Shown here: one piece after another, positions 45,005 to 49,456 of the stretch
Position numbering within the stretch: the stretch's first letter is position 1
Layout of the letters: each line of letters opens with the position of its first letter
Assembly: GCA_012719395.1 (NCBI GenBank)
Contig: JAAYAL010000013.1
Span: forward strand, 1-55,509
Source of the DNA: Gaiellales bacterium
Lineage (GTDB): Bacteria > Actinomycetota > Thermoleophilia > RBG-16-64-13
Direction of reading: 5' to 3'
DNA length: 55,509 nt
The notes under the pieces: generated by a model
Database searches by the model: none
Seen by the model: the letters and a program-made list of their open reading frames with translations, nothing else
Told to the model about the DNA's origin: nothing
Made by a program: the position numbers and the translations under genes

Positions 45005-45237
45005 TCATCTTGCCCCGTTTACGGTAGCGAGAGCTGGCTCTGCCAACAAGGTACTGAGTCTCACCAGGTTGAAGGCGGTGCGGGCGAGCGTGAAGACGGC
45101 ACTCACCTTTTCGAGGCCGCGATGCAGGAGCTTGCGCAGGCCGCCGTTGTCCTTCATCCAGACGAAGGGTTCCTCCACCTTCTTGCACCGCCGCTGCGAC
45201 GGCAGACCGCCGTGGCAACGGGGGCCTTCATGACTGT
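45005..45237 (-). mobile_element. 3' remnant of an IS5-type transposase gene
   Basis: The minus strand reads a transposase C-terminus: RRCKKVEEPFVWMKDNGGLR, then KLLHRGLEKVSAVFTLARTA and FNLVRLSTLLAEPAL before TGA. The KxxEExF(G/V)WxK and FTLxxxAxNLVRL pattern is typical of IS5/IS1182-like DDE transposases. Everything upstream is missing; its 5' edge abuts the dinB stop. An insertion followed by deletion is the simplest explanation. No terminal repeat was identified. Confidence 0.75.
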
Positions 45238-46406
45238 GCCGCTCCCCGCCTGACGGCGGTTTTGCCGTACTTCTCCCGGATGAGGTCCAGCTTCATGTTG
45301 AGCTCACGCAGGAGAGGCACCTCCTGATCGAAAAGGTCATCCTGCCAGGAACGGGGCACCAAATTGCTGAGACCCACGCCCAGCAGCCGAATACGGTAGC
45401 GCCGCTGCCTCCCCTGGCGGAAGAGCGCCAGCACTTCCCGAAAGAACACCTCATCCACATCCCGCGCCGGCAACAGCGTATGCGAGCAGGTATGGGTCAC
45501 GAAGTCCGAGTAGCGGATCTTGACCGTGACCGTACGGGCTTCCAACCGCCTGCGCCGCAACCGGCGGCAGACGTCTTCACACAGGCTGATGAGCGTGGCT
45601 TCCAACACCGCCGCATCCCCCACATCCTCGGGAAAGGTGGTCTCCCGCGATATGGACTTCACCGTCTCCCGTGGCGACACCCGCCGATGGTCCTGACCGC
45701 GCGCGGCCGTGGCCAGCATCTCCCCCCACTCCCCGAAGGACATCCGGAGCAGGCGCTCAGGCACGCGGGCCAGGTCTCCCACCGTCCGCACGCCCCGATC
45801 CTGCAGTTGCCCCAGGAGCGCCGGCCCCACCCCGGGTAGGCGCTGCACCGGCAACGGCGCCAGGAAGGCCGCCTCCGAGCCGGCGGGCACCACCGTGAAC
45901 CCATGAGGCTTCCGGAAGTCTGACGCCACCTTGGCCACCAGCTTGTTGGTGGCCAAGCCCACGGAGATACTCAGATGCAACTGCTCCTGAACCTCTTCCT
46001 GAATGGCGCGCGCCGTTCTTCTCACCGGCCCGAACAACCGCTCTGTACCGGTGAGGTCCACGTAGGCCTCATCCAGGCTCACCTGCTCCACCAACGGGGA
46101 ATAGCCACGCAATATAGCCATGAGCTGCTTGGAATACCGGTGATAGAGATGGTGATTGCCGCTGAGGTAGACACCATGCGGGCACAGCCGCCGGGCGGTG
46201 CGCAGCGGCATGGCCGAATGCACCCCGTATCTGCGGGCGATGTAGTTGGCCGTGGCCACCACTCCCCGCTCTCCACCGCCCACGACCACCGGTTGCCCAC
46301 GCAACGACGGATCCAGGTTCTCCTCCACACTGGCGAAGAAAGCGTCCAAGTCCAAATGGGCAACAGCACGGTACGAAGCCCGTGGACACGAGGGTGGTGT
46401 GCTCAT
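45228..46406 (-). CDS. dinB: DNA polymerase IV (Y family)
   Basis: Error-prone translesion polymerase of 392 residues. Catalytic acidic residues are in VAHLDLDAFFASVEE and QVSLDEAYVDLTG. YIARRYGVHSAMPLRTARRL, ISVGLATNKLVAKVASDFRK, the HhH segment LPGVGPALLGQLQDRGVRTV and the little-finger domain (VTVKIRYSDFVTHTCSHTLL) follow. It ends LIREKYGKTAVRRG, a normal C-terminus, at the edge of an IS remnant. A LexA-type box lies 15 bases upstream of the ATG and a -10 hexamer six bases upstream, so expression should be SOS-controlled and the message leaderless, although a GGGAG abuts the ATG. Confidence 0.95.
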   Translation of the reverse strand: MSTPPSCPRASYRAVAHLDLDAFFASVEENLDPSLRGQPVVVGGGERGVVATANYIARRYGVHSAMPLRTARRLCPHGVYLSGNHHLYHRYSKQLMAILRGYSPLVEQVSLDEAYVDLTGTERLFGPVRRTARAIQEEVQEQLHLSISVGLATNKLVAKVASDFRKPHGFTVVPAGSEAAFLAPLPVQRLPGVGPALLGQLQDRGVRTVGDLARVPERLLRMSFGEWGEMLATAARGQDHRRVSPRETVKSISRETTFPEDVGDAAVLEATLISLCEDVCRRLRRRRLEARTVTVKIRYSDFVTHTCSHTLLPARDVDEVFFREVLALFRQGRQRRYRIRLLGVGLSNLVPRSWQDDLFDQEVPLLRELNMKLDLIREKYGKTAVRRGAAQS

Positions 46407-46412
46407 ACTCCC

Positions 46413-46418
46413 ATTGTA
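46413..46418 (-). promoter_or_regulatory. -10 element of the dinB promoter
   Basis: TACAAT on the minus strand, exactly six bases before the dinB ATG, preceded by TA to give TATACAAT. The transcription start should coincide with the ATG. The LexA-type box ends three bases upstream. Confidence 0.55.
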
Positions 46419-46420
46419 TA

Positions 46421-46434
46421 CGAACATATGTTCG
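46421..46434. promoter_or_regulatory. LexA (SOS) operator upstream of dinB
   Basis: CGAACATATGTTCG is a perfect 14-bp palindrome matching the Gram-positive/actinobacterial LexA box (CGAAC-N4-GTTCG). It sits in the spacer between the dinB -10 and its expected -35, where bound LexA would block RNA polymerase. No lexA gene is in the window. Confidence 0.85.
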
Positions 46435-46503
46435 CACACAAGGTGCCTCCTGCGATTGCAGCGCAGCCGCCGGCCGCCGCAAGGCGCCCTCCCCTGGCGC
46501 CCG

Positions 46504-46887
46504 TCACCCCGACGGAGACCGGCACTTCCCGAAGTGCCGCGTGAAGAGATCCCCCAACAACACTTCGGCCTCCGCGTACAGAGCGCCATAGGCATCAACC
46601 AATTCCTCGGCCTCCTTGGTCAGGCGCGAGCCACCCCCGGAGGCACCCCCCACGCTCCTGTCCACCAAGGAGAAGCCGAGTCTGCCCTCCAGATCACGCA
46701 GGAGATGCCATGCCTTGTTGTAGGACATGCTCATCTCTGCCGCCGCCTGCCGCAGAGACCCCCGCTCCCGCACCAGCCGTAGCAGCTTCAGGGGGCCGAG
46801 GCCGAACGCTTTCCCACCCCGGTCCAACCACAACTTGAACCTCAGGGTGAGCTCATCAGGTGCACCGCTTCGTCCGTCCGCCATCAT
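46504..46887 (-). CDS. ModE-like winged-helix regulator (DNA-binding domain only)
   Basis: A 127-residue protein with the ModE/LysR-type N-terminal winged helix. Segments are LRFKLWLDRGGKAFGLGPLK, LLRLVRERGSLRQAAAEMSM, SYNKAWHLLRDLEGRLGFSL and SGGGSRLTKEAEELVDAYG. The molybdate-binding MOP domains of full ModE are absent, so it may regulate another process or use a separate sensor. The start codon overlaps the pgi stop in ATGATG, indicating coupling. No target operator is recognised. Confidence 0.85.
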   Translation of the reverse strand: MMADGRSGAPDELTLRFKLWLDRGGKAFGLGPLKLLRLVRERGSLRQAAAEMSMSYNKAWHLLRDLEGRLGFSLVDRSVGGASGGGSRLTKEAEELVDAYGALYAEAEVLLGDLFTRHFGKCRSPSG

Positions 46888-48299
46888 GCCCCCTTTCGCA
46901 GGCCGGCGACTTCGCGGGCCAGCGCCTCGTAGCCCGTGCGACCCATTAGTCCGTACGTGGCTTCCTTGCCCAACTCCACGCCGGGCTGGTCAAAGGCGTT
47001 TATGTCCAGCAGCTCGCCCATGAGGCCCGTGGCCACCTCCAGCATGTACAGCAGTTGCCCCAAGGCGTGCGCATCCACCCGCGGCAGGTCCACACGGATC
47101 GACGGCCGCCCCCGTCGTGCCAGCGCCCAGGCTGTAGCGCGCTGTTCCGCATTCAGGAGCTCGCCCAGGCCGTGGCCGCCCAGGTAGGCCAGCGCCGGCT
47201 TTTCCGCGTGAAGCTGTGGCATCGTCGCCTCCCGATCGAAGGAACCCACCCGCAGGAAGGTGACAACCTTGTCGTCCGGCCCCTCAACGTAGAGTTGAAC
47301 CTGAGAGTGCTGGTCCGTGGCACCGAGGGCCTCCACCGGCGTGGGCCCTACGTGGACGTCAGAGCCCCGCCGGTCCCTTGCTTTGCCCAGGCTCTCCGCC
47401 CATAGCTGCTTGAACCAATCGGCCACGAAGCGCAGACGCGCTGAGTACGGCATCATCACGCTGAGTCGCCGGGTGAAGGCTGTGTACTCAAGGTACTGGA
47501 CGCCCGCGAACAGCCCGGCCGGGTTGCGAAGGCCCGGGCTTTCCCTGATACGCCGGTCCATGGCGTCGGCCCCGGCCAGAAGGGCCGCCACGTCCATACC
47601 GCAGAGAGCCGCCGGCAGCACCCCCACCGGGGAAAGCACCGAGAAGCGGCCTCCCACCCCCGCGGAGATGGGGAAGGCCGGGATGCCCTCTTCCTCAGCG
47701 ATCTCCCGCAGGACGCCCTTCTCCGGATCGGTGGTGAAGACCATATGCTCGGCGACGGGGAGCCGGATCGCGGCTGGGCCGGCCTTGCCGGCCACATGTC
47801 CTTCCAGAATGTCCCGCACCAGCAAGTAGGCGGCGGCAGTCTCGGCCGTCCCTCCGGACTTGGAGACCACGTTGGTCAGCGTGCGCTCCCAGTCCAATAG
47901 GTCAAACAAGCCGCGGGTCTGATCAGGATCCACGTTGTCCAACACGAACAGGCGGGGTGTCCCCCCCCTCTCTTCCTTGCTCAGCAGGTTGTGGTAGGGG
48001 TGGAGCAGCGCACCTCCCAGCGCGATGGTCCCCAGGGCCGAACCGCCTATGCCCAACACCAGCAGATTGTCGAACCTTCCGTGACGCTCCTCCGCGAACC
48101 GCACAAGCCCGGAGACATCCTGGCCGGGCAGGTCCATCCAAGCCAGGTCGCCCGCCGCGCGACGCCCCTCCAACGCAGCCTGCGCCGCCGCCATCGGGCC
48201 GGCGCAGCCCTCCAACTGCCGCCCGGTGATCCCCCCGCTGCCTATCGCTTCCGCCAGCGCCAGAGTCACGTCCAGCTCGATCGCGTCTCTCTCGCTCAT
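46884..48299 (-). CDS. pgi: Glucose-6-phosphate isomerase
   Basis: Interconverts glucose 6-phosphate and fructose 6-phosphate. The 471-residue product contains LLVLGIGGSALGTIALGGAL, FVLDNVDPDQTRGLFDLL, TNVVSKSGGTAETAAAYLLV, GGRFSVLSPVGVLPAALCGM and the C-terminal FDQPGVELGK with the catalytic Lys. GGAGGAG precedes the ATG, which overlaps the glycosyltransferase stop as ATGA. The protein is shorter than the ~550-residue enterobacterial enzyme, in line with Gram-positive forms. Confidence 0.94.
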   Translation of the reverse strand: MSERDAIELDVTLALAEAIGSGGITGRQLEGCAGPMAAAQAALEGRRAAGDLAWMDLPGQDVSGLVRFAEERHGRFDNLLVLGIGGSALGTIALGGALLHPYHNLLSKEERGGTPRLFVLDNVDPDQTRGLFDLLDWERTLTNVVSKSGGTAETAAAYLLVRDILEGHVAGKAGPAAIRLPVAEHMVFTTDPEKGVLREIAEEEGIPAFPISAGVGGRFSVLSPVGVLPAALCGMDVAALLAGADAMDRRIRESPGLRNPAGLFAGVQYLEYTAFTRRLSVMMPYSARLRFVADWFKQLWAESLGKARDRRGSDVHVGPTPVEALGATDQHSQVQLYVEGPDDKVVTFLRVGSFDREATMPQLHAEKPALAYLGGHGLGELLNAEQRATAWALARRGRPSIRVDLPRVDAHALGQLLYMLEVATGLMGELLDINAFDQPGVELGKEATYGLMGRTGYEALAREVAGLRKGA

Positions 48300-49456
48300 G
48301 ACTCCTCCCACGCTTGCCATATGACTCGATCATACAATGGCGCCATATGGCCCCAGTCGTAACGGGCCACCCAGGCCCGCTGCCAATCCTCGGGCCACTC
48401 GCGCCCCTTCTCCACCGCCCGCCTCAGCAAAGGCACCATATCGTGGCCCTCGTAGAGCACCTCGCGCCGGGCTTCCAACGGGATCAGCTCCGGGTAGCTC
48501 AGCCGCTGCGGCAGGACCGGACGGCATCCGCAGTAAACGGCTTCCACCACCGCCTGCCCGAAGAACTCGTGCCTGGCAGCCGACACCACCACGTCCGCCG
48601 CCCACAACAAACTAGCGTACCGCTCGAAGGGGCGCACCTTGCCAAACTGGACGACGCGGTCGCCCAAAGCGTCCTTCAAGCCCTGCAGAGCCAACGGCGG
48701 CCTCCCGTGACCGGCCCCCGCGACGGCCACCCGAAAACGCCGCCCCTCGCGCGCCAACTCCAGCAGGGCCTCGGCCACCAGCTCCGGGCCCTTGTCGTAT
48801 TCCCAGCGTTGGTTCCACAGCACGAGCGGCCCCAGAGACGGGTCACCCCAGGGGCTCTCGCCTGCCCGGTACCGGTCGAAGCGGGCCAGGTCGCAACCCA
48901 AGGGAAGGACGGACGATTTGGCGGCCACCTCCTCCACCAGCCCGTGGGGCAGGCAGTCCGGGAGGCGGACCAGCAACTCCGGCACCGCCTGCAGGAACTG
49001 CGCTTGATGGAAGGCGCTGTTGAACAACACGCGATCGGCAGCAAGGGCCGTGGTGAGGTTCTTCCATCCGTAGCTGAGATCCCGGCTTTTCCCAGGGGGG
49101 AGAGGATAGGTCAGCTGATTCTCGTGGAAGTAGACCACGCAGGGCGCAGCGGCCACAGCCGGAGGAGCCAGGGTCTTGTACAGCGGCAGGTCCAGCATGG
49201 ACCCCGCGAAGACCACCTGGGGAGAACCTTGATTCAGCTGTGCTCGCGCCCGCGCTGCCAGTGCCAGCGCCCCCCCTTGCATGCGCCAGGACCAGTGCCG
49301 TCCGGGCAGGCCGTGCACCTCTATGGCATGCGCCGAATGTGCGGCCAAGCCCATTGCGAAATCGCGGTGTGAGCCTCCCAGGAAGGGCTCCACCGCCCAC
49401 ACCGTCAGTCCCGGGCCCGGCTCTTCCAGCCAGGGTAGGTACGCCGGCCGACTCAC
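48296..49456 (-). CDS. DUF3524 glycosyltransferase (tRNA-queuosine mannosyltransferase-like)
   Basis: GT-B glycosyltransferase of 386 residues. The N-terminal DUF3524 region has LTVWAVEPFLGGSHRDFAMG, GLPGRHWSWRMQGGALALAA, VFAGSMLDLPLYKTLAP and CVVYFHENQLTYPLPPGKSR. A group 1 transferase domain follows: VLWNQRWEYDKGPELVAEAL, VVVSAARHEFFGQAVVEAVY and GCRPVLPQRLSYPELIP. The animal member GTDC1/QTMAN mannosylates queuosine of tRNA-Asp; bacterial members are mostly uncharacterised, so the substrate here is inference. The GTG start overlaps the rhomboid stop as GTGA. It lies in a tight run with rhomboid and pgi. Confidence 0.85.
   Translation of the reverse strand: MSRPAYLPWLEEPGPGLTVWAVEPFLGGSHRDFAMGLAAHSAHAIEVHGLPGRHWSWRMQGGALALAARARAQLNQGSPQVVFAGSMLDLPLYKTLAPPAVAAAPCVVYFHENQLTYPLPPGKSRDLSYGWKNLTTALAADRVLFNSAFHQAQFLQAVPELLVRLPDCLPHGLVEEVAAKSSVLPLGCDLARFDRYRAGESPWGDPSLGPLVLWNQRWEYDKGPELVAEALLELAREGRRFRVAVAGAGHGRPPLALQGLKDALGDRVVQFGKVRPFERYASLLWAADVVVSAARHEFFGQAVVEAVYCGCRPVLPQRLSYPELIPLEARREVLYEGHDMVPLLRRAVEKGREWPEDWQRAWVARYDWGHMAPLYDRVIWQAWEES

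Follow-up and report, generated by a model that had tools for sequence, protein, structure and literature searches.

The window, by which we mean the whole 55,509-nt stretch of Gaiellales bacterium DNA analyzed here, carries dinB on its minus strand, preceded by a gene for a ModE-like regulator (Table 1). The dinB product matched NF002751 with 381 bits (cut-off 371) as well as the Pfam profiles PF00817 (IMS, 1.1e-51) and PF11799 (IMS_C, 1.9e-29). It possesses the IMS palm domain and the IMS_C little-finger domain of Y-family Pol IV, and the name dinB, given to the gene in an earlier sequence-only reading, is borne out by these matches. The catalytic acidic residues D19, D21, D112 and E113 (DxD and SLDE motifs) are invariant in the family alignment, in which the protein shows 73–80% identity to its orthologues. 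In several genomes of the family (L021, L022, L025, L026, and L029), dinB is immediately preceded by the end of a glucose-6-phosphate isomerase gene; in the window (46504-48320) the ModE-like gene intervenes between the two, with all three genes on the minus strand.

Table 1. Positions of the dinB promoter features and of the adjacent genes in the window.
Feature	Positions	Strand	Remarks
dinB, DNA polymerase IV, 392 aa from the ATG at 46406	45228-46406	minus	NF002751, Pfam IMS/IMS_C
Predicted start codon (ATG) of dinB, its A at 46406 being the predicted transcription start	46404-46406	minus	7th base after the -10; orthologues have ATG/GTG 6-8 nt after the -10
Out-of-frame ORF of 3 codons, ATG GGA GTA TGA	46403-46414	minus	overlaps the dinB start; matters only for a read-through transcript
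-10 element TACAAT (TANNNT)	46413-46418	minus	register kept in 13/15 family orthologues with a box
LexA operator CGAACATATGTTCG	46421-46434	minus	within the -35/-10 spacer; type matches the boxes in the genome's own lexA promoter
In-frame ATG inside the operator	46425-46427	minus	with an upstream transcription start, DinB would gain MFVYNGS; unusable in 8/11 leaderless-type family orthologues
-35-like TTGTGT	46436-46441	minus	17 bp from the -10; TTG at that place in 13/15 family orthologues with a box
ModE-like regulator	46504-46887	minus	upstream of dinB; TIGR00637 2.7e-17, below its cut-off; Pfam HTH_1; possible read-through source

Direct reading of the minus strand gives the order CACC-TTGTGT-GCGAACATATGTTCGTA-TACAAT-GGGAGT-ATG-AGC. 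The 14-bp sequence CGAACATATGTTCG (46434-46421) is a perfect palindrome, as the sequence-only reading had claimed, and is the sole exact copy of CGAAC-N4-GTTCG in the window vs. 0.06 expected from shuffles. The composite box-N2-TANNNT-N6-RTG, with up to two mismatches allowed, also occurred once in the window (0.02 expected). The box ends two bases (46420 and 46419) before the -10 element, instead of the three given in the earlier reading; the exact distance of six bases (GGGAGT) between TACAAT and the dinB ATG (46406-46404) was confirmed, and the end of the LexA box is 14 bp from that ATG. Because TTGTGT is located 17 bp from the -10 element, the operator falls wholly inside the spacer. The -35 element agrees with the consensus at TTG only and the promoter is GC-rich. 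A scan for consensus promoters and terminators detected nothing at the dinB promoter, since the scan requires a better -35 than the one present here. The predicted start A46406 is a purine flanked by pyrimidines, which is the preferred transcription start context in M. tuberculosis (PMC3898074). Upstream of the dinB ATG, a Shine-Dalgarno sequence at a usable distance is absent; the only similar run, GGGAG, ends 1 nt before the ATG and is not kept in orthologues. The ATG of the three-codon out-of-frame ORF is found at 46414-46412.

We read 16 dinB upstream regions of the same family. The box was present in 15 of them, and 13 of these 15 have retained TTG-N17-TANNNT around a box that sits in the spacer, the TANNNT being three bases past GTTC. 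In 11 of the 13, an in-frame ATG or GTG follows the -10 element after 6 nt (G000, G002, G003, G006, G011, and G012), 7 nt (G001, G015, and G017) or 8 nt (G010 and G016). The two others (G005 and G008) retain the promoter but their dinB is apparently leadered, and two further members (G009 and G014) have the box while the -10 is missing at that place; leaderlessness is therefore not universal for dinB in this family. The 6–8 bases from the -10 to the start codon are unconserved and lack a Shine-Dalgarno sequence in the orthologues. Only 3 of the 11 leaderless-type orthologues have an open in-frame ATG within the operator; in the rest that ATG is missing, out of frame or followed by a stop, which makes the start codon beyond the -10 element the common one for dinB.

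The same layout was found across the class. In 399 genomes, box-N2-TANNNT-N(2-16)-RTG matched at least 141 distinct sites vs. 1 for a reversed-pattern control. Among the class sites listed, the distance from the -10 to RTG was 6 nt at 41 sites, 7 nt at 32, 8 nt at 17 and 9 nt at 21, with at most 9 sites at each other distance. Of 30 class loci fetched, almost all that were complete had a long ORF beginning at the RTG. The products tested belong to DNA-damage genes: a Y-family polymerase, Rv2578c-type radical SAM proteins, a DEDD exonuclease/UvrC-like nuclease and a LysM/YneA-like protein. Pattern matches were found in 65 of 296 genomes from other classes of the phylum vs. 4 control matches. 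In 455 kb of the window's own genome (343 long ORFs), TANNNT ended 7 nt before 16 of 2223 candidate ATG/GTG codons vs. 3 of 1922 control codons, and other distances were near background. This signal is modest because the true starts are diluted among candidate codons. We counted it against our preferred explanation that the peak lies at 7 nt and the dinB gap is 6 nt. The genome-wide Shine-Dalgarno signal, taken at uncorrected gene starts, was weakly above that of control codons.

LexA blocks promoters until its RecA-stimulated self-cleavage. Family and class members share the spacing of operator, -10 and start codon but not the intervening sequence, which supports both LexA control and leaderless translation of dinB. 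We concluded, at a probability of roughly 0.87, that the dinB promoter is SOS-regulated, with the LexA operator between its -35 and -10 elements, and would give a leaderless mRNA. LexA on the palindrome would block RNA polymerase, and the damage-induced cleavage established for LexA would presumably free the dinB promoter. Judging from the spacing and its conservation, transcription probably starts at, or about 1 base from, the A of the dinB ATG, and the resulting mRNA would be translated without a Shine-Dalgarno sequence. The leaderless start proposed by the sequence-only reading thus appears well supported, by the kept spacing together with the lack of a Shine-Dalgarno sequence at a usable distance.

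It is unlikely that dinB is LexA-regulated but leadered, with transcription from an upstream start or by read-through from the ModE-like gene, and with translation from 46406 or from 46427, the latter producing an extended DinB (MFVYNGSMSTPP...). A leadered transcript could arise by read-through, given that the ModE-like gene shares the strand of dinB and the scan detected no terminator-like site in the interval. In the window the reading frame from the operator ATG into dinB is uninterrupted, two family members appear leadered, and the dinB of another family in the class starts at an ATG within its box. However, upstream of the box the window has TTGTGT instead of a TANNNT at the distance used by that other family, neither ATG is preceded by a Shine-Dalgarno sequence at a usable distance, and the orthologues keep the post--10 start while most have lost use of the operator ATG. 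We judged from the family comparison that 46427 is unlikely to be the true dinB start.

A start codon inside the operator is found elsewhere in the class. The second register TANNNT-N-CGAACNTATGTTC gave 42 matches vs. 0 for the reversed control in 299 class genomes. Loci with the layout TANNNT-N-CGAACN-TATG-TTC are L200-L229, L037, L041, L042, L044, and L045; the operator ATG opens an ORF in most of the fetched ones, and the proteins begin with M-F. They include DinB of another family, a second DinB type, LysM/YneA-like proteins, DnaE2 and small proteins lacking a Pfam match. The predicted placement of the start codon within the LexA operator in many class members is more unusual than the layout of dinB in the window, and a phrase search of the literature found no paper on a LexA operator overlapping a start codon. 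One could propose that LexA operators of leaderless SOS genes in the class occur in two registers, one holding the start codon, and that the window operator would act both as LexA site and as second start, so that damage-induced leaderless and read-through mRNAs would give different DinB N-termini. We regard this proposal as very unlikely.

The small proteins whose start codon falls inside the LexA operator (79–135 aa; L212, L214, L215, and L217-L224) are candidates for unknown SOS proteins. Several of them have a DAIDDMLLGDYDYV- or LEFSTLGEYGLE-like motif, and a Pfam search of four of them gave no match. In many promoters of the second register (L204-L207, L212-L223, and L260-L269), CGTCCG-N10-TANNNT is found upstream of the LexA operator; CGTCCG-N10-TANNNT-N-CGAAC gave 17 matches vs. 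2 controls. The geometry is equal to that of the mycobacterial PafBC element, TGTCGG-N10-TANNNT (PMC8151990), which suggests that these genes may be under joint PafBC-like and LexA control.

We examined the LexA boxes in the rest of the 2.43-Mb genome. The genome has one clear lexA gene, and its promoter carries two boxes of the dinB type, GAACATTTGTTC and GAACATACGTTC. GAACATTTGTTC sits in the 17-bp spacer of TTGCCA-N17-TATACT, in a register equal to that of dinB; lexA appears to be leadered, with the purine run GGGAGAAGAAGG preceding its GTG. Besides dinB, exact CGAAC-N4-GTTCG occurs at seven sites, of which only two, at dnaE2 and at rpoD/plsX, are in plausible SOS promoters (these gene names come from reading translated ORFs, without a family search), the others falling within reading frames. 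The dnaE2-like ORF (G000:C89, L007 1501-1602) carries a pair of LexA boxes separated by 89 bp, and the first occupies the spacer of TTGTCA-N17-TAGACT. The start region of recA showed no box in the 300 bases upstream. We excluded most of the genome's other exact and near-exact boxes from the regulon, among them exact ones inside reading frames; the GAAC-N4-GTTC sites L161, L166, L169, and L172 were also rejected, all four within reading frames. Between divergent rpoD-like and plsX-like ORFs there is a perfect LexA-type box (L003 1501-1514; G000:C45:26355-26368), one base before a TACAAT in the rpoD direction. With this box, the main sigma factor may be under SOS control.

The scarcity of plausible promoters among the other exact sites, and a reversed-pattern control that exceeded the forward count for genome sites with up to one mismatch, would fit a chance palindrome at a dinB outside LexA control. 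This is highly improbable, given that the box occupies the same place in nearly all dinB promoters of the family, across genera, matches the lexA boxes, and belongs to a composite so rarely expected in the window. The LexA control of dinB proposed in the earlier reading is therefore supported, by the lexA boxes of the same type and by the kept operator. Equally improbable is that TACAAT is not the -10 and that the box represses another nearby promoter: the GC-rich promoter and poor -35 would favor it, but TANNNT recurs at the exact distance from the box in the family orthologues and class sites counted above.

The dinB locus, read as a LexA-controlled and leaderless gene, offers a clean and conserved example of an SOS gene that would be repressed, and translated, without a 5' UTR. 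By comparison, this layout is common for damage genes of an uncultured actinobacterial class, and box-N2-TANNNT-N6-9-RTG is a sequence rule that helps to fix the start codons of SOS genes in that class. These promoters make it possible to test how the ribosome handles leaderless mRNA after DNA damage. The sequence-only reading called the arrangement a neat regulatory design, which is fair, although it is common in Actinomycetota and not special to dinB here.

An experimentally shown leaderless SOS gene is lexA of M. tuberculosis, whose transcription start coincides with its translation start (PMC2897130). Like the window dinB as predicted here, it is a LexA-regulated, leaderless gene of the Actinomycetota; the gene is lexA rather than dinB, and the window genome's own lexA appears leadered. 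Leaderless genes make up ∼20% of actinobacterial genes and are marked by TANNNT ∼12 bp upstream of the start codon (PMC3160421), and actinobacterial TANNNT precedes the transcription start by ∼7–12 bp (PMC3898074). The dinB gene resembles them in -10 pattern, distance and Shine-Dalgarno absence; those are general promoters, whereas at dinB the LexA operator fills the spacer between -35 and -10. The dinB/dinP gene is a known LexA target, for example in dnaE2-dinP of Streptomyces venezuelae (PMC9380542), which shares with the window a LexA-controlled translesion polymerase (predicted control in the window) and a box of the CGAAC-N4-GTTCG type. There, dinP is listed with dnaE2, whose box precedes the predicted start by 68 bp (PMC9380542), whereas the window dinB has its own promoter. 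Since lexA of M. tuberculosis is leaderless and dinB/dinP is a known LexA target, the window dinB is not new in kind; its layout of start codon and operator is a well-supported example of an already known kind.
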